The notes beneath the pieces are model-generated. The model had not been told where the DNA came from. It ran no database searches and saw only the letters and a list, made by a program, of their open reading frames with translations. A stretch of DNA of 64,000 nt, taken from NCBI RefSeq assembly GCF_002160325.1, contig NZ_NFKJ01000006.1, forward strand, positions 62,001 through 126,000, read 5' to 3'. How positions within the stretch are numbered: position 1 is the first letter of the stretch; each line of letters starts with the position of its first letter. The DNA comes from Lachnoclostridium sp. An181 (GTDB lineage Bacteria; Bacillota; Clostridia; Lachnospirales; Lachnospiraceae). Position numbers and translations under genes: made by a program. Of the stretch, positions 46,705-64,000 are shown piece by piece.

Positions 46705-46890
46705 TCATGTAGAATTGATGTAATCCGTCAACGTCACATAAAGCGTATCCCGAACTTTGATCCCCTCTTCTCTGACTGATACCACAACTTTACCTGCAAT
46801 TTCCAGATACTTTTCTGATATCTCTTTTACTCCTTTTTGAAATCGGTAATTATCTTCCGCATTCTTAAGACAGTAAATCTTTTCAACAAG
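46705..46890 (-). pseudogene. Isolated fragment of a BglG/LicT-type antiterminator gene
   Basis: The minus strand reads LVEKIYCLKNAEDNYRFQ, VKEISEKYLEIAGKVVVSVR and VRDTLYVTLTDYINST, then TGA. It lines up residue by residue with the start of the first PRD domain of the intact licT at 54.3-55.2 kb (LVEKIYFLKNEEDNHRLQ, VKEISEKYLEIAGKVVTCAR, IKDTLYVTLTDHINSA). The RNA-binding domain and the second PRD are absent. It is a remnant of a second antiterminator gene. Confidence 0.85.
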
Positions 46891-52256: not shown

Positions 52257-54161
52257 TTATTTGATAATCAGAATCTCTTCCAGTTCTTTTACTTCTCCTT
52301 CTGCATTTGCAGAGACATCCGCAAACTTATCCGTATTGGAAATAATAATCGGTGTTGTGATATCATATCCTGCTTTTACAATCTCATCTTTGTCAAATTC
52401 CAGAATCACTTCCCCTTTTTTCACCACATCTCCTGACGCTTTTTTCGGATGGAAATAGTTTCCTTCCAGTTCCACAGTGTCCATGCCAATATGGATCAAA
52501 AGTTCCACTCCATCCTCACTGACAAGTCCGGCTGCATGTCCGGTTTCAAACATGACCTGGATTTTCCCGTCAAACGGAGCAACCACCTCGCCTTTTTCCG
52601 GCACGATCGCTGTCCCTTTTCCAAGAATACCCTGGGAAAATGTTGCATCTTTTACTTTCTCTAACGGAATCACTTTTCCCTGCATCGGACTTAGCACATG
52701 AATTTCCTGCCCTTTCAGAATCGGTTTTACATTCAATGTTTCCGGTGTCTCCTCTGTTGTTTCTTCCAATTCATCATCTTCATCCACAATATCTTTAAAT
52801 CCAATGATCATGGTTGCGATAAATGTGACAACTACAGTCAGAAGAATCGTAAGTGCTGCGATCAGCAGACTGACTGCACGGTCTTCCTCCACATACTGCA
52901 CGATCGTCACAATTGCAGGCGTGGCTATTCCAAAGCATTTCATCTGGAAAAATCCTCCGAATAATCCACCCACAGCAGCACCGATACAAGCGCCTAACAT
53001 CGGACGTTTCAATCTGAGTGTGACACCATACAAGGCTGGCTCCGTGATCCCTGCAAACAATGCGGAAAATGCAGAAGAACCGGCAACCTGTTTAAAGTCT
53101 TTATTTTTACTCTTGATGGATACTGCAAGTGACGCTGCCCCCTGTGCCATATTGGAGCAAAGTTCTCCGATACAGATAAAGTTTTCATATCCGGTTGTCG
53201 CGATCATTCCAAGTTTGATCGGTGTAAATGCATGGTGCATACCCGCCATAACTACAAACGGATAAATACCTGCCACAATTCCGATTGCAATGAATCCTAA
53301 CTGGTCATGAACAAAATATACAATATCTGACAGTACATTTCCAAAGATCGCTCCAAGAGGTCCCAGTACGATCAGCGCGATCGGAGCCTCGATCAGAACA
53401 ACTAACATTGGCTTTAAAAAGTTCTTTGTCACAACCGGAGTAATCTTGTCCACCAGTTTCTCTACATATTTCAAAGACCATACAGCAAGGATGATCGGAA
53501 TCACAGAATAAGAATAGGTTGCATAGGTAACCGGTATAAATCCAAGGAATTTTACTACTTTCCCTGCCTCATTTGCTGCGTCCATCATGGAAATAAAATT
53601 CGGATGCAGCATGATCAGTGCGATACTCGCCGCATAGTACATATTGGTTCCAAATTTTTTAGATGCGGAAATCGCGATCAATACAGGCATAAAGAAAAAT
53701 GCGCCGTCTCCCATCACACTCAGCAGATTGTAAGTGTATCCTTCTGTGTCCAACACTCCGATCATCGGAAGGAGCGTCAGCAGCACTTTGATCATAGCAG
53801 CGCCGATGATCGCGGGAATTACCGGAGCCATGACCCCGGAAATGGTATCCATCAGCGCAGATAAAATATTTTTCTTTTCTTTTTTCTCTGGTGCCTTTTT
53901 AGGAACTTCATTGGAAAAATGGCCCAGCTTATTTAACTCTGCAAACACATTTCCAACATCGTTTCCTATGATAATCTGATACTGGCCTGCTTTTTTCATA
54001 ATTCCCATAACACCTTTTGTCTTTTTTACAGCCTCATCGTCCACAATGGACTCATCTTTCAACGTAAATCTCAGCCTTGTCATACAATGCACCAAGCTGA
54101 CCACATTTTCTTTCCCCCCTACACGCTGCAGGATTTTTTTTGCTACACTCTCGTAATCCAT
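52257..54161 (-). CDS. bglP: Beta-glucoside PTS transporter, EIIBCA
   Basis: Imports and phosphorylates beta-glucosides such as cellobiose, arbutin or salicin. 634 residues from the ATG at 54161 (AGAGGTG upstream). EIIB comes first (about 1-85, phosphorylated Cys in LVHCMTRLRFTLKD near 26). EIIC has about ten membrane helices (100-455) and includes GMHHAFTPIKLGMIA and GITEPALYGVTLRLKRP. EIIA (about 480-634) has the active His in LLIHIGMDTVELEG. It lies between licT and bglA, with an antiterminator site in front. A longer frame upstream has no ribosome binding site. Confidence 0.95.
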   Translation of the reverse strand: MDYESVAKKILQRVGGKENVVSLVHCMTRLRFTLKDESIVDDEAVKKTKGVMGIMKKAGQYQIIIGNDVGNVFAELNKLGHFSNEVPKKAPEKKEKKNILSALMDTISGVMAPVIPAIIGAAMIKVLLTLLPMIGVLDTEGYTYNLLSVMGDGAFFFMPVLIAISASKKFGTNMYYAASIALIMLHPNFISMMDAANEAGKVVKFLGFIPVTYATYSYSVIPIILAVWSLKYVEKLVDKITPVVTKNFLKPMLVVLIEAPIALIVLGPLGAIFGNVLSDIVYFVHDQLGFIAIGIVAGIYPFVVMAGMHHAFTPIKLGMIATTGYENFICIGELCSNMAQGAASLAVSIKSKNKDFKQVAGSSAFSALFAGITEPALYGVTLRLKRPMLGACIGAAVGGLFGGFFQMKCFGIATPAIVTIVQYVEEDRAVSLLIAALTILLTVVVTFIATMIIGFKDIVDEDDELEETTEETPETLNVKPILKGQEIHVLSPMQGKVIPLEKVKDATFSQGILGKGTAIVPEKGEVVAPFDGKIQVMFETGHAAGLVSEDGVELLIHIGMDTVELEGNYFHPKKASGDVVKKGEVILEFDKDEIVKAGYDITTPIIISNTDKFADVSANAEGEVKELEEILIIK

Positions 54162-55159: not shown

Positions 55160-55206
55160 CCCCCTTGTAAGTGGTACACTGCGAAGTATTTCCCGCAAAA
55201 TAAAAA

Positions 55207-55272
55207 ACTGCCTACAATACTATCCATTCAGTATTATAAACAGTCTTGCTTACCCTCACGTAATAACAAACT
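55207..55272 (-). promoter_or_regulatory. Second RAT site and terminator before licT
   Basis: The minus-strand segment 55272-55242 (AGTTTGTTATTACG...AAGCAAGACT) resembles the RAT before bglP, sharing TAAGCAAGAC, with a 2-base longer loop. It overlaps a terminator stem ACTGTTTATAATACT / AGTATTGTAGGCAGT (55207-55244), followed by TTTTTTA. licT therefore controls its own transcript as well. Confidence 0.88.
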
Positions 55273-55286
55273 TAATTTACACGTAT

Positions 55287-55315
55287 ATAGTAACAGCTTG
55301 ACAGGTGTTTGTCTA
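55287..55315 (-). promoter_or_regulatory. Promoter of the licT-bglP-bglA operon
   Basis: TAGACA (55310-55315) and TACTAT (55287-55292), 17 bases apart on the minus strand, about 15 bases before the first RAT site. Confidence 0.7.
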
Positions 55316-55897
55316 CTGAAAATTTCATTTTCATCAAATATGATAATTTTATTCTGCATTTTTTATGCAAAACAGACGACATAAAAGCTTTCATGAAAAC
55401 ACATTCTCCGGAGGAATTTAGTATAACTCCACCTCCTATTCTCAATTTGGACATAAAATCTAATAACCTAGGGGTTAAAACCAGGAACGGCAAGTATCAT
55501 CTCACCGTCCCTGAAAAGGTATTTATAATCTATTTTTGAAAAAATCTATGCTTAGAGTAATCAATCTTACATTGCCTGTCTGATTGTTAAGAGATTTCTT
55601 AAATGTTTTTCCTTTTATTTCCTTTAATCACATACAATTTTTTTCAATCTCTCCCACTAATATCCCTACCAAAAACTCTGTTTTTTCAATCCATTTCCAA
55701 GATACTCACAGTTCAATCATTCCTGCTCACTCTACTCCGAAACCTCTTTTCTCTTTAAAAGGCACACAGTCTCCACATGGCACGAGAGGACAGGAAGTAC
55801 GTCATTTGCCGGGCGGTTCGTCCGACTTGATCCACCGCTGTTTTTGCCCTCTTGATCGTAGGTGGGAACATATCTAAATACAATTCTCCTACCTACT
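55316..55897. other. Junction region between the bgl operon and the foreign island
   Basis: About 580 bases without a supported gene; short ORFs on both strands look like noise. On the minus strand, 55732-55779 encodes CHVETVCLLKRKEVSE and a stop codon, which resembles the HVE[CT]VV end of RlmD/RumA-type 23S rRNA uracil methyltransferases. The rest of such a gene is absent. rumA/rlmD 3' ends are known integration sites for some mobile elements, so this may be one half of a split target gene. Confidence 0.5.
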
Positions 55898-58420
55898 TTA
55901 GCGTTTGACCTGAGTTCGTGTACGAACCCTATGCCGATCTTTAATCCGTACATTTTGTCTCAATTTATTATATAATTCTATATCATCTCTACTTCCATAT
56001 GAAAAAGTGATTGCTAAAGCATAATCTTGTGGTGCTTCTTGTTCTGCATATTTAAATCGCTCTTTCCCTGTAACTAAAATATATATATATGGTTCATTTT
56101 CATCCCATAATAAGTCACTTCCTCCACGAGGACCTTTCCTCCATATACGCTGTTGCAATGTGCTTTTTGATAAATCTCGATACCCAGGTAAAAAAGCTGC
56201 TTTATTTTCATCCGGAAGATTTTCTAAATCTTCCTCCGAGTCTTCCCCAGATTCCTTTTTTGCTTTGTATAAAATCAAATCTCTTTCATCTATTTTTCTG
56301 AACACTTCAAACCACAAATTATTAGTAAGATAATCTTTTCTACTTAGACGAGTAATTGGATTATAAGCCAAACTGATTGCAATGCTTTTTTCTGCTTTAA
56401 CTTTCAAAAATTCTTTTGGAACAGGAATTTTATATAAATGAAAAGATCTCAGCTCCAGTGAATCCTCTGCAAACAATGTCACATGGTTATCATCTGAATA
56501 AAGAAGACTATCATTTGCTTTTCCAAATCCAATTAATCTTAATCTCCGTTCCTGCTTAGGATTATTTTTACCTTTATGAAATACATCGGTTGATGCCTCA
56601 GCCCACGATAACATTTCATCAGTACATCTTGAAGAATTAACAAGGATTGCTCGAATCAAATTGGCAGATGGTTTTTCTTTTATTTGTTCCTGTAGAGCTC
56701 TTTCGATTCTAGCAGCAATATGAGTAACATGTGGTGCTGAGAAACTGGTCCCGCACCACCCCTTAAATATCTTATCATTACCGTTATGTAATGTAGGTTC
56801 TAGCAATTTTTGATCTGTTTTTAACCACCTTGTTTGGCCTCTCATAAATTGAGTAACTGCAAAATTCCCACCATAATCTACCAGTTCAGGTTTTATAGCC
56901 TTATTGACACCTTTACCAATTCGAGTAAATACAGACATGTAATCTTTCTTTCCAACAGAAATACGTCCACTTCTATTAGGAATTGCCTCAGGTTCATCAA
57001 AACGAGTTATTGCTCCCACTGTAACACTAAGAGCCGATGTTGCCGGATCTATTAAACGATGCTCCGGATAGAATAATTGATCTCTGCACTTTTCTAGCAA
57101 TTCATCGCGTGAAGAAAATTCCACAATATTGGGATCTGCAACATTTCCTGCACTTACAATTATTACTATATCTAAATCGCGTGATAATTGATCCAACATT
57201 TCTGCCCACGCAAATTGTCGGCCGCCACAATATAAATGATCACTATCTCCCGCAGATAGATTAAAAACTCTACACCCATATTCTTTATAAAAATATTCAA
57301 TAGCCTCCTTAATCGTTTGTTCCGGTCTCTTATCTATCGAAAAGACAGGGTTTCCATTGTCATTATGCATGATTTTCCCATTGCACAAACGTACTAATGG
57401 TTTAAATACTTTAGACTTCATTCCTACAGTGAAATCTCCATATGCCACTATCCCTGCAACACCAGTCCCATGTCCATTTAAATCTGCTGTGGTATTTTCA
57501 GTATGGTCAAAATCCTCTTCAGCTACTACAATATCACTCAGCAAAGGATTTCCCGTAAATATTCCAGAATCTAATATTGTTGCTAAAGGTGCGCTAGAAT
57601 CCAGCTCATTTTGAATTATTGGTTCATAATCCCATTTATATAGTTCATATGGCTCAGTTACAACGTTACTATATGGTAACTCTACAGATGCAATAATATC
57701 TAAATCTAATAATGCATTTAATGTAAATTCATTAACAGATGCTCTCCCCAGCAGCAAACTGGGAATTTCAAATAAATCCCCCAATAGTTTGCTCCCTTGT
57801 GTCCCTAAAGCTTGTCGCAATTGTGCTTCTGTTTCCATAATCGTTGAGCGATCCCCATTGAACCAAACATCAATGTTAACAACAAACAAACCTTCTGGAA
57901 ACAAAGATGGATTATCCATGTATTTTCTCAAGCGAGTTCCGATACGGTCTTGACGAGAAACGCTTCTAATTGTTTCTATACAATTAAATAAATCTCTCCT
58001 TTGTGCATAAGTCAAAGTTGAAGAATTTTCATCATCGTTTTCCCACAATTTTCTTTCGTAATTAAAAGCATTTAATGCATCTTTATTTTCAAACTGAATA
58101 ACTAGCTTTGTGTTATTAGTATTTATGATATCAATTTCTTCTACTAAGTATAGATTAAATTTTCGCAACATGTTCTCGAGAATTGTTGGTGACATCGCAT
58201 CACCAATAACCTCAAGAACCAATAAATTTTCAGATTTAATGCCCGCATTCATGCGGCTTTTCTTAATAGAATTTATTGCTTCGGACAATTCATTTTTCAA
58301 CTGAACGCCATGAATTTTTCTGTCTCGTGAAGGTGGTTTCGGTGCATTCATATTAGCTGGAAATCTATACTGACGTATGGCATCTTCACGGCTTATTTCA
58401 ATATGATTTAATTTCGCCAT
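55898..58420 (-). CDS. Large subtilisin-like (S8) serine protease, IetS-like
   Basis: 840 residues, no signal peptide, so cytosolic. The N-terminal about 270 residues match no domain I recognise. The S8 domain covers about 275-590 with the full triad: Asp284 in ATILDSGIFTG, His317 in LNGHGTGVAG, Ser559 in GTSFSAPHV, and oxyanion Asn426 in VSAGN. A C-terminal domain of about 250 residues follows, with LLYSDDNHVTLFAEDSLELR and PYIYILVTGKERF. It starts 21 bases after the AAA+ ATPase gene. The pairing of a large S8 protease with a small AAA+ ATPase is that of the ietAS plasmid-maintenance/anti-phage pair. The ATPase presumably controls or feeds the protease. The gene is clearly more AT-rich than the bgl operon, suggesting transfer. 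Confidence 0.85.
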   Translation of the reverse strand: MAKLNHIEISREDAIRQYRFPANMNAPKPPSRDRKIHGVQLKNELSEAINSIKKSRMNAGIKSENLLVLEVIGDAMSPTILENMLRKFNLYLVEEIDIINTNNTKLVIQFENKDALNAFNYERKLWENDDENSSTLTYAQRRDLFNCIETIRSVSRQDRIGTRLRKYMDNPSLFPEGLFVVNIDVWFNGDRSTIMETEAQLRQALGTQGSKLLGDLFEIPSLLLGRASVNEFTLNALLDLDIIASVELPYSNVVTEPYELYKWDYEPIIQNELDSSAPLATILDSGIFTGNPLLSDIVVAEEDFDHTENTTADLNGHGTGVAGIVAYGDFTVGMKSKVFKPLVRLCNGKIMHNDNGNPVFSIDKRPEQTIKEAIEYFYKEYGCRVFNLSAGDSDHLYCGGRQFAWAEMLDQLSRDLDIVIIVSAGNVADPNIVEFSSRDELLEKCRDQLFYPEHRLIDPATSALSVTVGAITRFDEPEAIPNRSGRISVGKKDYMSVFTRIGKGVNKAIKPELVDYGGNFAVTQFMRGQTRWLKTDQKLLEPTLHNGNDKIFKGWCGTSFSAPHVTHIAARIERALQEQIKEKPSANLIRAILVNSSRCTDEMLSWAEASTDVFHKGKNNPKQERRLRLIGFGKANDSLLYSDDNHVTLFAEDSLELRSFHLYKIPVPKEFLKVKAEKSIAISLAYNPITRLSRKDYLTNNLWFEVFRKIDERDLILYKAKKESGEDSEEDLENLPDENKAAFLPGYRDLSKSTLQQRIWRKGPRGGSDLLWDENEPYIYILVTGKERFKYAEQEAPQDYALAITFSYGSRDDIELYNKLRQNVRIKDRHRVRTRTQVKR

Positions 58421-58441
58421 GCCCTTTTCTCCCCCTTATAA

Positions 58442-59434
58442 TTAATACTGTGTCTTTCTCAATGAAACGATTTGCTCTTGTTTTTTTACCGCATATTCAA
58501 TATCCTTTTTGGTGTATATTTTTCTTCCATCAAGAATACACATTTTCATTATGATTTGACAAACTTTTTCAACATCTGAATGAGAAAAAGCACCCAAATT
58601 GTTTACATATTGTTCAAAGACATGTTCTGGTCCTTTAAAACGCTTAAGATTTAAAGAAAACAATTTAATTTTTTCTTCATTTGATGGCATATCAAACTGA
58701 ATTGTTTCATCAAACCTTCTCCATATCGCATAATCTAATGATTGTTCAAAATTAGTTGCAGCGATAATTAATGAACGGCCTTTATAATTATCTATTTGTT
58801 GTAAAAAAGCATTAACTACCCGTTTTATTTCGCCATGTTCTGCTGCATCATTACGACTATGACCTATAGCATCAAATTCATCAAAAAAGATAACCCAGCT
58901 ATCATTTTTGGCGTAATCAAATACTTTTCTAATATTCCCGGCTGTTTCACCAAGATATGAAGAAATAAGCGCATCAAATCTCACATACAGCATAGGGATT
59001 CCAATTTCTCCAGCTATAGCATGGGCTGCTAAAGTTTTTCCACATCCTGGAGGACCATAAAAAAGAACTCTTCTTGTTGGAAATACTCCATTACTCATTA
59101 GAACATCCCAATTATTAAATTCTTTTATAATTTGATCTAACTGCATTGTTTTTTCATCAGTTATTATCAAATCAGAAAAATACTTTTCCGGATAAATAAC
59201 TTCAACCAGCGGTATTTCTTTATCATTGTCCTTCGGTGTATTAGATGAAAAAGAAGACATTGAACGCTTAGGTTGATAATTTCCGTTAAGAATCATTCTT
59301 AAATCATCAGCTAAGATACCATGATTCTTTTTTCTCTCATCCTCAATAATTTCCGAAGCAACTTTATAAAAAGAGTCTTTATCCTCTTGCTTAAAGCTAC
59401 TAAATAATTTCTTTAACAAATCGGCTCTAGCCAT
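58442..59434 (-). CDS. AAA+ ATPase, IetA-like partner of the S8 protease
   Basis: 330 residues. A helical N-terminus (1-90) is followed by an AAA+ module of the FtsH/spastin-like type: Walker A YGPPGCGKT at 126-134, pore-loop-like SYLGET near 159-164, Walker B VIFFDEFDAIG at 181-191, sensor-1 Asn228 in AATNFEQSLD, arginine finger in WRRFDE near 238-243, and a lid domain with GAFSHSDVEKVCQIIM. No protease domain is fused. The partner protease is the next gene. The start follows AAAGGAGT, 48 bases after the Xre gene. Confidence 0.88.
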   Translation of the reverse strand: MARADLLKKLFSSFKQEDKDSFYKVASEIIEDERKKNHGILADDLRMILNGNYQPKRSMSSFSSNTPKDNDKEIPLVEVIYPEKYFSDLIITDEKTMQLDQIIKEFNNWDVLMSNGVFPTRRVLFYGPPGCGKTLAAHAIAGEIGIPMLYVRFDALISSYLGETAGNIRKVFDYAKNDSWVIFFDEFDAIGHSRNDAAEHGEIKRVVNAFLQQIDNYKGRSLIIAATNFEQSLDYAIWRRFDETIQFDMPSNEEKIKLFSLNLKRFKGPEHVFEQYVNNLGAFSHSDVEKVCQIIMKMCILDGRKIYTKKDIEYAVKKQEQIVSLRKTQY

Positions 59435-59482
59435 GATATTACTCCTTTCAAGTTTGCATTTGTTTTTTATATGATTGCACTA

Positions 59483-59695
59483 CTAGAGCTTCTCTAGTTC
59501 AGAAATTAAATTTATATCTACATTTTGGTTTTTGCAGAATTCGAGTAACCTTACCTTTGCTAATTTACTAGGAACTGTATGACCGTTTTCCCACCTATTA
59601 ATAGTAGAAAAACTTATATCTAATTCACGGGCAAATTGTTCTTGTGTCATTTTTAGCTGACTTCGTATCTTTTTAATTATCATACCAAATCCCAT
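59483..59695 (-). CDS. Xre-family repressor of the ATPase/protease operon
   Basis: 70 residues from the ATG at 59695, which has GGAGGTG at good distance. The frame stays open 22 codons further upstream but without a ribosome binding site. The helix-turn-helix at about 5-55 is IIKKIRSQLKMTQEQFARELDISFSTINRWENGHTVPSK, followed by LLEFCKNQNVDINL. As the first gene of the operon, with palindromes in its promoter, it most likely represses its own operon and releases it on infection or stress. ietAS pairs are not usually described with such a regulator. Confidence 0.85.
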   Translation of the reverse strand: MGFGMIIKKIRSQLKMTQEQFARELDISFSTINRWENGHTVPSKLAKVRLLEFCKNQNVDINLISELEKL

Positions 59696-59719
59696 TTCAA
59701 GCACACCTCCACGCTTCAG

Positions 59720-59748
59720 ATTATAGCAAATGCTATAGCATGTTTCAA
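59720..59748 (-). promoter_or_regulatory. Promoter with overlapping palindromic operators
   Basis: TTGAAA (59743-59748) and TATAAT (59720-59725) lie 17 bases apart on the minus strand. The spacer is filled by two overlapping palindromes: TATAGCA-AA-TGCTATA (59722-59737) and ATGCTATAGCAT (59730-59741). A repressor bound here would cover both promoter boxes. Confidence 0.88.
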
Positions 59749-59802
59749 TATTTCTCAACACAATCTGAGTTTAAAAGTAAGTAAAGCTGACCTCTCTTTT
59801 CA

Positions 59803-61374
59803 CTACCTCCCCGCGTCCACCTTCGCCCCAGATTTGAACTCCACCTCAAATCTTTCATCGTAAACCGTGACCTTTTCAATCAACCGCCGCACCAGCAGTT
59901 CATCATACTCCGTGACCTCGGTAGACTGCTGTTCCAGAAACTCCCGCATCTCCCTGATCCGTTGTTTCAGTCCTTCCCGCTCGGCGCTTTCCACCAGAGC
60001 GTTCTGCTTCAATTCCCGCAGCCTGTCAATCTCATCCGCAACGCTGTTATAATCCTTTTTCGAATTCGCCAGTTTCAGAAGTTCCTTCTGCAGGTCCAGC
60101 AGCTTGGTCTCAATCCCTTCCGATGAGGTTTCATCCTCCTGTCGGATCACTGCCTCCACGTTCTCCCGGAGAGTGGCCATCATGCTTTCTCTGTTACCCA
60201 GCGCAAGGTTGATCGCCTGCACCACCGCCGCCTGCAGATCCGCCTCTTGAATGGTTGGTGCATCACAGGCGGTTGGTCCATGTTCCACACGGGTACAGCA
60301 CCGCCACACTGTGGAATGTTTTCCACGGTTATTCCATGCAATCCTCCGGTAAATTTCACCGCACTTGGAACAGTAAACAATGCTGGATAAGGCATACTTG
60401 CTGCTGTAAATCCTCTTTTTCCGGTTGGCTCCGCTATGGAGGTTCGCCCGCCGGATCATTTCCTCCTGCACCTGCATATAAAGGTCACGTGGAATGATGG
60501 GCTCATGGCTGTTTTCCACATAATACTGTGGGACAATCCCCTTGTTCTGCACCCTCTTTTTATTGAGGAAGTCAACAGTATAGGTCTTCTGCAAAAGGGC
60601 GTCTCCGATGTACTTTTCATTCTGCAGGATCTTCTTCAGTGTTTCCGGACGCCACTTCTTTTTCCCAGCCCCAGTAAGAATCCCGTCTGCTTCCAGGCCA
60701 CGCCCGATCTGGAGCAGGCTTGCCCCTTCCAGGTACTCCCGGTAAATCCGCTTTACCACTTCCGCCTCTACAGGCTCTATGATCAGATTTCCTTCCTCAT
60801 CCTTTGTGTAACCCAGAAAACGGCTGTGGTTGACCCGGACCTCTCCGTTCTGGAAGCGGTACTGCAATCCGAGTTTGATGTTCTGGCTCAAAGACTGGCT
60901 TTCCTGCTGTGCCAGGCTCGCCATAATGGTGAGCAGCACCTCACCTTTGGAATCCATGGTATTGATGTTCTCTTTTTCAAAGAAAACCGGGATGTTCTTC
61001 TCCTTCAGTTCCCGAATATATTTCAGGCAATCCAGCGTGTTTCTGGCAAACCGGCTGATGGACTTGGTAATGATCATGTCAATGTTCCCGTCCATGCAGT
61101 CCTGGATCATGCGGTTAAATTCCTCCCGCTTTTTCGTATTCGTTCCGGTGATCCCGTCATCGGCATAAATCCCTGCCAGCTCCCATTCTGGATTCTTCTG
61201 GATAAACTGCGTATAATGTGCCACCTGCACCTCATAGCTGGATGCCTGCTCTTCACTGTCCGTGGAGACCCGGCAATAAGCAGCGACTCTCAGCTTTGGC
61301 CGTTGCCCAACTGCAGCGGTATTTCCTACCCGCTTTCTGGCCGGGATCACAGTAATATTCCTACTCAGTTCCAT
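59803..61374 (-). CDS. Large serine recombinase
   Basis: 523 residues from the ATG at 61374, which overlaps the end of the previous gene. The resolvase domain (about 25-170) begins [16 protein letters not shown] (nucleophile Ser) and has [13 protein letters not shown] and [15 protein letters not shown]. The recombinase domain (about 185-300) includes [14 protein letters not shown]. The zinc-ribbon domain (about 330-375) has [11 protein letters not shown] and [10 protein letters not shown] coiled coil and C-terminal segment follow. It is the third of three adjacent recombinase genes, which together probably integrate and excise the element. Confidence 0.92.
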
Positions 61375-61792
61375 CCATATCCACCTCGCTCTCAATCAAA
61401 CTGTATGCATATGCCGCCTGTTCAAAGGGATCGTCAGAAACCTTTTTCACTGCAGGCATGGTAAAATTGGTAGGGAAGAGGATGTCCTTCTTTCCTTCCA
61501 GTTCCCATATCCGCCCCAATGCCTTTGCCCGGTCCATGCGTATTTCTTCTGCCTTATCGAAGGTTTCTTTGTCGATAATGGCAGGATAGTAATCATCTCC
61601 AAGATACTTCTTATTCCGGAGCATCCTGCCAGCACTTCCGTGGTACAGCTTTAATCCGACTTTCTCGGCGGCGGGCATAAGCGCCATGCCGGAAATATAG
61701 TTCTGAAAAAAATCCCGCACCGTGGCGGCCTGTTCTTCATCGATGACCGCCCGGCCATTTTCAATCCGGTATCCATACGGAATGTGTCTCAT
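61361..61792 (-). CDS. Short recombinase-domain protein
   Basis: 143 residues from the ATG at 61792, which overlaps the stop codon of the preceding recombinase by four bases. It holds only a recombinase-type DNA-binding domain: [69 protein letters not shown]. It has no catalytic resolvase domain. The tight overlap on both sides argues that it is a real third member of the recombinase set and not a broken gene. Confidence 0.85.
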
Positions 61793-63351
61793 GGTTCCAC
61801 CAGCCTTTCTTTCAAGGACAGTCCGCATTTCCATTCAAAAACCACTTCTTTTCTGGACAGTACGGTGATCCGCTCCACGAAGGAAAGGAAAATTTCATCA
61901 TCGAATTCCGTCATCATGGTTCCTTTGGATGTAAACCGGAGCAACCGCTGCAATTCCTCTATTTTGACCATATCTCCATTGACAGAGCGCATCAGCCCAT
62001 CCTTTTCCTGCCGCAGGGCTTCCGCTTCCGCTACAAGTTCATTACTTTCCTTATTAAAAAGAGCAGGCTCCAGATAGCCGCTTGCCATCAGGTTCGTCAG
62101 AACCTGTTTCTGCTCCCTGTTTTTCTCGATTGCCGTTTCCAGTTCTTCAATCTTTAGCAGCCGGGATTGATCATTCAGTCCCCGCAGGCTTTGCAAAAGA
62201 GGACGCAGCACCATCTGATGTCCAAAGACCAGCTTGTTCATCATGGTAACAAACGCCAGTTTCAAAGTATCATCCGTGATGTATTTCTGCGAACAACTTT
62301 CCTTATCTTTCAGATGATTGGCACAAGCCCAGGCCACATACTGGCCGCTGGGTTTATAATGCATCCGTCTCTTATATTTGCCGCCGCATTCTCCACAACA
62401 GATCCGGCCAGAAAAGCCGTACCGGTTCTGGTATCTCCCAGTGTCATGGCCATTTCCTTTTTCACGCCCCCGCTGTTTCAAAACCGCATTGGCCAGTTCA
62501 AACTCTTCCTTTCTGATGATTGCTTCATGGTGGTCCTGCATCAGGTACTGGTCAAGTTCTCCCCGGTTCTGATGGCGGTTAAAGCTGCTGTCCGTATAGG
62601 TCTTCTGGAACAGGACGTCACCCGTATATTTTTCATTCCCGATGATGGCGTTGACGGTACCCGGCGTCCAATGTCCGCCCTTCTTGGTAGCAACGCCCCG
62701 CTCATTCAGTTCCTCCGCAATCTCGTGGGTACTTTTCCCCGCAAGCGTGTCCGCAAAGATCTGTTTCACGATCTCCGCTTGCCCCGGTACGATCACCATC
62801 TCCCCGTCCACATTGTCATAACCATATGGGGGATAGGAAATGATGAAGGTTCCATTCTGAAAGCGCCGCTTGATACCCCACTTCTCATTTTCAGAAATGG
62901 ACACCGACTCGCTTTCTGCCAGACTGCTTAAAATGGAAAGCATTAATTCACTCTCCATGGAGCCCGTGTTTAGATTTTCTTTTTCAAAATAGATGTAGAT
63001 CTTTAAGTCCAGCAACTTCCGCACCAGTTCCAGACAGTCCGTGGTATTTCTGGCAAAACGGCTGATGGATTTGGTAATGACGAAGTCAATCGTTCCTCTC
63101 TCGCAGGCGGCAACCATCGCCAGCAACCCATCCCGCTTTTCTTTTTTCGTACCGGAAATGCCTTCGTCATAGTAAAGTCCGGCAAACTCCCACTCATCAT
63201 TGGATTTGATGTAACTCTCATAGTGAGCCTTCTGCGCTGCCAGACTAACAAGCTGTTCATCTCTGGCTGTAGATACCCGGCAGTAGGCCGCCACTCTAAG
63301 TTTTCTCTTTTCGAGGGGCATATTTTCTTCAATTTTTGTGATCCGTTTCAT
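61789..63351 (-). CDS. Large serine recombinase
   Basis: 520 residues from the ATG at 63351 (GAGAGGTGAGAGG upstream). Resolvase domain (about 15-160) with [28 protein letters not shown] and [18 protein letters not shown]. The recombinase domain (about 180-300) has PPYGYDNVDGEMVIVPGQAEIV and NEKYTGDVLFQKTY. The zinc ribbon is CCGECGGKYKRRM...CANHLKDKESC (about 340-385), and a coiled coil lies at 415-465. It differs clearly from the recombinase at 59.8 kb, so the pair is not a recent duplication. Confidence 0.92.
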   Translation of the reverse strand: MKRITKIEENMPLEKRKLRVAAYCRVSTARDEQLVSLAAQKAHYESYIKSNDEWEFAGLYYDEGISGTKKEKRDGLLAMVAACERGTIDFVITKSISRFARNTTDCLELVRKLLDLKIYIYFEKENLNTGSMESELMLSILSSLAESESVSISENEKWGIKRRFQNGTFIISYPPYGYDNVDGEMVIVPGQAEIVKQIFADTLAGKSTHEIAEELNERGVATKKGGHWTPGTVNAIIGNEKYTGDVLFQKTYTDSSFNRHQNRGELDQYLMQDHHEAIIRKEEFELANAVLKQRGREKGNGHDTGRYQNRYGFSGRICCGECGGKYKRRMHYKPSGQYVAWACANHLKDKESCSQKYITDDTLKLAFVTMMNKLVFGHQMVLRPLLQSLRGLNDQSRLLKIEELETAIEKNREQKQVLTNLMASGYLEPALFNKESNELVAEAEALRQEKDGLMRSVNGDMVKIEELQRLLRFTSKGTMMTEFDDEIFLSFVERITVLSRKEVVFEWKCGLSLKERLVEP

Positions 63352-63411
63352 CCTCTCACCTCTCTTTCGGTACGGACATATTCGCTCTGACACCTGCAAA
63401 TAGCAAGTCAT

Positions 63412-63630
63412 TTAGGGCATAATCCGAGCCAGATAGGGAGAGAATGATTGGCGGTTTTTCGCCGTAATTTTGTCTAATTCACCCTCAGAAATCAGCTCCG
63501 CCTCCCGCAGCTTTTCCAGCAGTTTTTGCGCCATGTAATAGTCAAATTCCCTTTGCAGCTCCTCATCTGTGAATAGTTTCCTCTCTGCTGTCTGATTCTG
63601 AAAACCAGCCGTCACCTTCGTTACCTGCAT
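63412..63630 (-). CDS. SHOCT-domain protein of the mobile element
   Basis: 72 residues. The C-terminal half has the short helical SHOCT pattern AQKLLEKLREAELISEGELDKITAKNRQSFSPYL. The N-terminus is TKVTAGFQNQTAERKLFTDEEL. Such genes commonly precede serine recombinase genes in Firmicutes prophages and integrative elements. It ends 60 bases before the first recombinase start. Function unknown. Confidence 0.75.
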   Translation of the reverse strand: MQVTKVTAGFQNQTAERKLFTDEELQREFDYYMAQKLLEKLREAELISEGELDKITAKNRQSFSPYLARIMP

Positions 63631-63775: not shown

Positions 63776-64000
63776 TTAAAGCCGTTTACAGTAATCCAGG
63801 GAAATCCAACCAGCGCCGCTCTTGAGTTTTCCCCAGCCATTAGTCGATCCGGTGCCGGATTTCACCTCGGTAATCGTGAACACACCCTTACCCGTAAATT
63901 TGCCTGTCTTACCATAGTTGGTTCCGGGGCCTTTCCGGATATTCAGATCTGTAATAGTCACCTGCACCCTGAAAGAGCCACCGGAACTACCAGAACCAGC
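63776..64000 (-). CDS. 3' end of an SH3-domain protein, probably an endolysin/amidase
   Basis: Partial; it begins beyond the right edge. The visible 74 codons encode a Gly/Ser linker (AGSGSSGGS) and one bacterial SH3 domain (TITDLNIRKGPGTNYGKTGKF, GWGKLKSGAGWISLDYCKRL). This layout is typical of the C-terminus of phage-type N-acetylmuramoyl-L-alanine amidases. With the recombinases next door it marks the lysis-integration end of a prophage or a related element. The catalytic domain is not visible. Confidence 0.75.
   Translation of the reverse strand, partial: AGSGSSGGSFRVQVTITDLNIRKGPGTNYGKTGKFTGKGVFTITEVKSGTGSTNGWGKLKSGAGWISLDYCKRL

Follow-up and report, generated by a model that had tools for sequence, protein, structure and literature searches.

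The three genes next to a group of serine recombinases in Lachnoclostridium sp. An181 raise the question of which system they encode and of how the protease among them might be kept in check. They lie in the stretch analysed here (the window), which comprises 64,000 nt of the assembly GCF_002160325.1 (contig NZ_NFKJ01000006.1, positions 62,001-126,000 of the forward strand). The three co-directional open reading frames were as described in the original prediction: on the minus strand, xre (59483..59695) encodes a 70-residue helix-turn-helix protein, ietA (58442..59434) a 330-residue AAA ATPase and ietS (55898..58420) an 840-residue S8 (subtilisin-like) protease. The genes are separated by 48 nt (xre-ietA) and 21 nt (ietA-ietS) and form an operon-like unit behind a near-consensus promoter. 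No match at Rfam gathering scores was found between positions 54000 and 64000.

The resemblance to ietAS noticed in the original prediction was borne out by the defence-profile search that it had proposed. The PADLOC IetA model (PDLC02196, E 4e-95) covered residues 6-319 of the 330 of the ATPase and the IetS model (PDLC02198, E 1.7e-103) residues 1-838 of the 840 of the protease. Because both models cover nearly the full proteins, the pair is assigned by profile to IetAS, a known toxin-antitoxin/defence pair, with the ATPase as predicted antitoxin/unfoldase partner and the protease as predicted toxin/effector. As in ietA/ietS of Agrobacterium pTiC58, listed as anti-phage by PADLOC and named IteA/IteS by NCBIfam, the AAA ATPase gene is directly upstream of the S8 peptidase gene on the same strand, and the Walker motifs and the catalytic triad are intact. 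The window pair differs in having xre, together with a conserved operator-like site, in front of it and in its location on a tailed prophage. Moreover, it falls far below the curated cut-offs of the equivalogs that define the narrow NCBIfam subtype (250.8 bits against 510 for IteA, 101.7 bits against 900 for IteS), and an IetAS activity is therefore carried over here from distant relatives. We know of no experiment on the IetAS clade of the window.

IetA belongs to the classical clade of AAA ATPases. The Walker A (GPPGCGKT) and Walker B (FFDEFD) motifs were present as foreseen, together with an invariant arginine pair, R239/R240, which we take to be the residues meant by the label 'arginine finger'; the motif SSYLGET resembles a pore loop. 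The structure model (pLDDT 81.8) matched proteasomal Rpt and p97 ATPases, as did the sequence. In IetS, Pfam PF00082 covers residues 281-631, and Asp284, His317 and Ser559, described earlier as intact, were identical, along with N426, in 11/11 aligned proteins (that of the window counted). No hydrophobic stretch was seen in the first 40 residues, so the protease is probably cytosolic. Its terminal regions had been called unrecognised, which holds for Pfam, where they had no match, but not for PADLOC; since the IetS profile extends over residues 1-838, these regions are family-wide and not unique to this protein. The structure model of IetS, built from 11 sequences, was poor (mean pLDDT 42.7), and a Foldseek comparison of this low-confidence model with the PDB found nothing at E 0.001. 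Ferredoxin-like, propeptide-type domains were hinted at by the succession of predicted elements at about residues 60-155 and 180-250, candidates that were discarded. The comparison of residues 158-262 with families and the PDB revealed no inhibitor domain, and no convincing solved relative was found for the C-terminal 241 residues. The plasmid-borne homologues of IetS among the matches listed were 22-29% identical.

The 'mobile element' that carries ietAS is, judged by its gene content, a tailed prophage. Beyond the integrase-type recombinases the gene order is endolysin, holin, tail, head, portal and terminase, and 10/10 scanned neighbour proteins matched phage families (terminase, portal, head protease, major head, adaptor, major tail, tape measure, Dit, holin and endolysin), ietAS being contiguous with virion structural, lysis and integrase genes. 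The recombinase trio, on the minus strand, consists of a 530-residue serine recombinase of the integrase type (59803..61395; PHROG 95 integrase, E 8.8e-145; Pfam Resolvase/Recombinase), a small recombinase-domain protein of 157 residues (61361..61834; Pfam Recombinase, E 2.4e-5), which occupies the same place in related loci, and a second integrase-type serine recombinase of 540 residues (61789..63411; PHROG 95 integrase, E 1.6e-147). It is adjoined on the same strand by the gene of a 72-residue SHOCT-domain protein (63412..63630; Pfam SHOCT_2, E 7.5e-13), and the endolysin gene (63776..64000, minus strand; PHROG endolysin, E 1.2e-90) extends past the window (L063:15776-16717). Serine recombinases are thus present beside the operon, at 59803-63411, as had been noted; they are integrase-type genes of the prophage carrying the module and not an unusual local addition. 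The same trio precedes xre-ietAS in four more loci (L037, L039, L052 and L057), and phage-family matches were obtained for 6/6 scanned neighbours in L039, L052 and L057.

The module is placed between these recombinases and the prophage end at about 55771. The terminal stretch (55771..55889), next to the presumed attachment site, is 119 bp long and shares 87% identity with the corresponding end of a prophage of Eubacterium sp. An11, with no match beyond. A search for an empty attachment site led to the An11 locus, which carries a recombinase-like ORF and in which the host match stops at 55370; the second prophage end lies off the contig. Among 50,697 phage records no match covered 80% of IetS and three records had a partial match, so that phage-borne copies are those seen in prophages and IMG/VR contigs. 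The search of viral contigs with IetS alone found no relative, and that with the IetA alignment gave three loci.

The first gene of the unit starts at an ATG behind GGAGG, which gives 70 residues, the mechanical ORF of 92 residues beginning at a GTG further up; the protein matches Pfam HTH_3 (E 2.3e-12). Upstream, on the minus strand, a promoter-like TTGAAA-17-TATAAT (11 of 12 positions; 59720..59748) contains the operator-like site TGCTATAGCATTTGCTATA (59722..59740), which takes up the -10 box and the greater part of the spacer. This promoter-like site scored best of 18 in 55200-60200, a region whose shuffles average 18.7 such sites, and its TTG is nearly invariant in related loci. A survey of homologous loci, likewise suggested in the original prediction, found an Xre homologue as first gene in 14 loci, window included. 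The promoter site TGCTATAGCATNTGCTATA was exact in 10 of 13 non-redundant xre loci (L037, a near copy of the window, being left out) and had 2-3 mismatches in the other three, with diverged flanks. A conserved palindromic site that overlaps the gene's own promoter is the arrangement of an autorepressor module, and it is inferred that Xre binds the predicted operator-like site and represses its own promoter. The xre gene had been regarded as an unusual local addition, a description that does not stand, as it is common to most of the clade and to other defence-type operons.

The two large genes were paired, with ietA directly upstream of ietS, in 16/17 loci of one rescanned set and in 7/7 of an earlier one. 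The incomplete cases were L152, with a piece of IetS without IetA, L046, with IetA and only a short piece of IetS, and L048, with IetA and no IetS detected in the 1.7 kb downstream. Xre distances correlated with those of IetA (r 0.82, n 12, permutation p 2e-4) and of IetS (r 0.88, n 10), and the correlation between Rec1 and IetA was weak (r 0.57, n 6, p 0.022) and is not relied on. The correlations include L037 but neither L050, where ietA is cut off, nor L044, whose xre is frameshifted; the tree was likewise made without L050.

Taken together, xre-ietA-ietS is probably a toxin-antitoxin/defence module of the IetAS type that the tailed prophage carries as cargo, placed between its integrases and its end. 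Xre would bind its site and repress the promoter, and consequently all three proteins would be held at a low, self-limited level. IetA, an ATPase of the threading type, would keep IetS inactive. Loss or outcompetition of IetA, or interference with it by an incoming phage, would release IetS to cut a host or phage protein, and growth or infection would stop. The prophage might gain by the exclusion of competing phages, by its own retention, or by both. The restraint of IetS by IetA, the trigger and the target are likewise inferred. Experiments on SgiAT (PMC5006074) and on A132/T133 (PMC8562856) are in line with the suggestion that the ATPase holds the protease back, as far as the accessible parts of both reports go, but no evidence was found for its second half, a direct restraint by Xre: some IetAS loci within the clade have no Xre, and in L044 xre is frameshifted with ietA and ietS open. 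According to the accessible text, SgiAT of Salmonella genomic island 1 combines an AAA ATPase antitoxin with a subtilisin-like toxin on an integrative element, and this behaviour was demonstrated; it differs from the window in lying on an island instead of a prophage, and that text mentions no Xre first gene (PMC5006074). The mycoplasma pair A132/T133 is also an AAA ATPase antitoxin with a subtilisin-like protease toxin, in which loss of the ATPase gene alone was reported to be lethal, but it is chromosomal, and no Xre is mentioned in the part of the report at hand (PMC8562856).

It may be asked whether the unit serves the prophage only as an addiction module, retaining it by killing cured cells with no anti-phage role. 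The ietAS genes of the window do sit on a mobile element, the pTiC58 pair is described in a cited title as a plasmid stabiliser, and SgiAT is described in the available text as an island stabiliser (PMC5006074). Such an exclusive role is nevertheless unlikely: PADLOC files the family among defence proteins, NCBIfam names it anti-phage, and SgiAT under its own promoter did not kill plasmid-free cells, as stated in the same portion of that report (PMC5006074). Moreover, some related loci adjoin R-M genes, and relatives of Xre precede R-M and BREX genes. A type I methyltransferase follows xre-ietAS in L042 and L056, and Vsr with a cytosine methyltransferase in L057.

A further reading, in which Xre is the lysogeny (CI-type) repressor of the prophage itself and ietAS merely uses its promoter, draws on the position of xre next to the integrases and on its similarity to families of phage repressors and regulators (best E 1.8e-12), and it is very improbable. 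With 70 residues Xre is too short for the second domain of a CI-type protein. At <=2 mismatches the assembly as a whole contains the operator-like site only once, so that on the available sequence no second phage promoter shares it, and in L056 the xre-site pair precedes an ietAS located behind rumA, the stretch examined showing no integrase. That the protease and the ATPase serve together in ordinary intracellular processing or quality control is hardly credible in spite of the proteasomal/p97 type of IetA, since relatives of IetS were found in only 9/392 genomes of the order and 19/398 of the phylum (E 1e-25, the genome of the window counted in both), both proteins match IetAS profiles and the window copy is on a prophage.

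With the cargo module as the preferred reading, what was already known is the IetAS pair; prophage carriage, the conserved Xre promoter site and the occurrence of Xre relatives before other defence-type genes are added here. A phage-borne form of IetAS with a defined 19-bp control site makes it possible to test directly, by reporter, how the dose of such a toxic protease is controlled. Small relatives of this Xre recur before unrelated defence genes, in some cases with an almost identical site, and this suggests a shared solution for moving toxic defence systems between cells. CapW is related to the BrxR-type defence regulators. The latter resemble the present Xre in being one regulator family near diverse defence systems, but they are described in the accessible text as WYL-domain proteins, whereas Xre is a bare 70-residue helix-turn-helix protein (PMC9122601).

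It is tempting to speculate that promoter, site and xre form a portable control cassette to which various unrelated anti-phage systems have been joined, an idea that we regard as tentative and somewhat more doubtful than not. If it is true, one family of tiny autorepressors would set the level at which many defence systems are made and would permit their safe entry into a new host. Among loci with Xre relatives before defence-type genes, the site with <=3 mismatches was found in 5/24, compared with 0/182 control regions; this control replaced an earlier background (31/2920 random 120-mers with <=3 mismatches), which was not clean because it was drawn from loci holding true sites. The methyltransferases downstream of Xre relatives need not be defence genes. 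The exact 19-bp pattern occurred in 17 viral stretches, four with Xre directly downstream (L068, L071, L073 and L074) and 13 without, nine of the latter being one repeated coding stretch, and the pattern alone is therefore not diagnostic. At <=1 mismatch it was present in 19/392 genomes of the order, the reversed control pattern in 7/392; the matches in four of the 19 (G000, G145, G109 and G237) are xre loci analysed here.

The idea of one site shared by all members of the Xre family is disfavoured by Ruminococcus phage NatCom_38182, in which an Xre 41% identical to that of the window precedes two cytosine methyltransferases, because the best upstream match there has 7 mismatches. More remote relatives within this Xre family precede further defence-type genes. 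At 0-4 mismatches the site was found with two far-apart IetAS clades, with type I R-M, type II methyltransferase and GHKL-ATPase genes, and the distant IetAS locus L138 has it with 3 mismatches. Several site-bearing loci directly follow serine recombinases or adjoin rumA, which would fit a position at the ends of elements.

The minus-strand genes xre (59695-59483; 70 aa, Pfam HTH_3), ietA (59434-58442; 330 aa, Pfam AAA domain) and ietS (58420-55898; 840 aa, Pfam S8 domain) follow one another in this order, with intergenic gaps of 48 nt between xre and ietA and 21 nt between ietA and ietS. The PADLOC profiles matched the two larger proteins near end-to-end, IetA with E 4e-95 (residues 6-319 of 330) and IetS with E 1.7e-103 (residues 1-838 of 840), so that the original assignment to IetAS is confirmed; the original observation of three open reading frames with intact S8 and Walker A motifs holds as well. 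Since the scores against the NCBIfam equivalogs IteA/IteS were far under the cut-offs, the pair is, by these profiles, a member of the IetAS family and not of the IteA/IteS subtype. Earlier accounts of IetAS reportedly include an Agrobacterium paper and a 2020 anti-phage screen; IetAS and prophage are named together in published papers. As a protein system xre-ietA-ietS is ordinary, and the greater interest lies in a regulated phage-borne cassette with a control unit resembling that of other defence operons.

The S8 residues D284, H317, N426 and S559 of IetS were identical in all 11 aligned proteins. Walker A was present in 17/17 aligned IetA proteins and the S-S-[YF]-L-G-E-T motif, taken as the pore loop, in 16/17, being missing from the distant L089 (L-numbers denote comparison loci from other genomes or viral contigs). 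The structure model of IetA (pLDDT 81.8) and sequence searches gave matches to proteasomal and p97-type ATPases, which thread substrates. The C-terminal end of IetA (gene 58442-59434) is also conserved, as RKTxY, or RRTQY in L040, in 12 of the 17 aligned proteins, and is possibly a docking tail.

It was found that ietA lies directly 5' of ietS in 16 of the 17 loci of one survey set and in 7/7 of an earlier set. L152 carries an IetS piece without IetA; among Deltaproteobacteria MAGs, L046 has IetA with a short IetS piece only, L048 has no IetS within 1.7 kb downstream of IetA, and the L047 contig stops 84 nt past ietA. IetS is interrupted, with IetA open, in L049 (10751-13273, in-frame stop) and in L040 (2840-5348, frame change).

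Upstream of xre there are two integrase-type serine recombinases (59803-61395 and 61789-63411) flanking a small recombinase-domain protein (61361-61834), then a SHOCT protein. The recombinases beside xre-ietA-ietS, noted originally, are reinterpreted as prophage integrase-type genes. Of the proteins encoded farther on, 10/10 scanned past the window edge, as far as the contig end, matched phage families; endolysin, holin, Dit, tape measure, major tail protein, head-tail adaptor, major head protein, head protease, portal and terminase are encoded there. DNA similar to the recombinase trio occurred in 121 of 50,697 phage records, with at least 80% of the trio covered in one only; phage IMGVR 15682261 and Streptococcus phage Javan102 have it at the record end, which is not so in others.

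Eubacterium sp. An11 carries a prophage (L037) that shares 95.5% identity with the window over 8055 bp, reaching the ietS end. Past ietS this prophage contains three extra genes, then 119 bp shared (87%) with window 55771-55889, beyond which no further match between the two was found. This comparison would hence place the prophage end near 55771 and ietAS in a variable cargo stretch of the prophage. The extra genes (L037:13884-16220, ietS to phage end), absent from the window, encode a radical SAM protein and two proteins without NCBIfam match. The recombinases have a GC content of 0.48-0.51, and ietAS has a lower one of 0.31-0.37. A second stretch, window 46712-46881, has 73% identity over 171 bp to an antiterminator-like gene region of An11, which suggests another such gene in the window, presumably of BglG/LicT type.

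An Xre homologue directly 5' of ietA was found in 14 loci (window, L037-L044, L050, L052, L053, L056 and L057). The full recombinase trio precedes xre-ietAS in five of them (window, L037, L039, L052, L057); in L040 xre-ietAS follows one recombinase at the contig start, and the remaining loci showed no recombinase in the available sequence, of which L041 has little. In a 40-row tree of IetA, 13/18 members of the window's clade have Xre vs 2/22 of the others (L089, L138). The distribution requires five changes, at least four of them forced by well-supported branches; shuffled labels gave as few as five in 0/500 trials, a clustering that near-copies favour. Xre is absent from L045 (Cohnella) and L046-L049. 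In L044 (Desulforadius tongensis) site and gene have decayed jointly, xre being frameshifted (L044:1100-1294) and the predicted Xre-binding site carrying three mismatches, with ietA and ietS still open. The Xre gene, originally regarded as an unusual addition, is, judging from these loci, an old yet dispensable partner of IetAS. Its absence from some loci, and its decay in L044 with ietA and ietS open, argue against Xre as the antitoxin.

In the relatives SgiAT (PMC5006074) and mycoplasma A132/T133 (PMC8562856), the protease is reported to act as toxin and the ATPase as antitoxin. For xre-ietA-ietS itself, the sequences show the gene content, unbroken catalytic motifs, the conserved site, a location in a prophage and a correlated divergence of Xre with IetA and IetS. 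If the toxin-antitoxin logic is carried over to xre-ietA-ietS, the operon would repress itself via Xre, IetA would by analogy restrain the IetS protease, and IetS may be released against its putative target upon infection or loss as the presumed trigger.

The predicted operator is a 19-bp palindrome (59722-59740, minus strand), common to the DNA 5' of xre in otherwise diverged loci as TTG-N5-[TGCTATAGCATNTGCTATA]-NT, with a mean commonest-base frequency of 0.95 within the 19 bp vs 0.56 in the flanks. Among 13 non-redundant xre-ietAS loci it was exact in 10, with two mismatches in L038 and L053 and three in L044. The site coincides in part with the spacer and the -10 box of a promoter-like sequence (TTGAAA-17-TATAAT) and occurs once in the assembly at ≤2 mismatches. 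Among the papers listed on XRE regulators and defence or on site and operon (PMC9122601 being one), titles and abstract beginnings gave no account of it.

Used as a query, the Xre alignment found 15 viral loci and 17 loci in 17/295 genomes of the order; 24 of the 32 were kept, once the members of the window clade (L084-L086, L099, L100), near-copies (L088, L095) and L097, which is without upstream DNA, had been set aside. The site was close upstream at ≤3 mismatches in 5/24 (L087 with none, L104 and L105 with one, L102 with two, L089 with three) and at ≤4 in 8/24 (adding L101, L103, L111); it was unrecognisable in the remaining 16, the best upstream match having 5-9 mismatches. In 182 control regions from these loci, each 5' of a longer ORF, ≤3 mismatches never occurred and four occurred once, at the L111 gene itself.

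Downstream of Xre, PADLOC matches were found, as a raw count, in 14 of the 17 loci scanned (L096, L098, L102, L103, L110, L111 and L114 being left out of the 24), the weakest with E 2.3e-12. They comprise IetAS (L089), candidate PDC-S05 (L090), BREX BrxC as third gene downstream (L091), methyltransferases (L092, L094), MzaB (L093), HsdM (L101), type II methyltransferase (L104), type I restriction enzyme (L105), PD-Lambda-5 (L106), methyltransferase with MzaB (L107), type II restriction enzyme (L108), type III methyltransferase (L115) and, matched weakly by the GHKL-ATPase protein of L087, a type II restriction enzyme; with the limit set at 1e-15, the downstream proteins of L109, L112 and L113 gave none. 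In L087 (6001-11044) a serine recombinase is directly followed by the exact site, xre and two further genes; the product of one is 769 aa long and has two GHKL/histidine-kinase-type ATPase domains, and that of the other is 455 aa long, with no match in family searches. In L056 xre-ietAS is followed by a type I methyltransferase, and in L101 and L102 xre by an HsdM-like gene; rumA adjoins all three loci, above the NCBIfam cut-off in 3/3.
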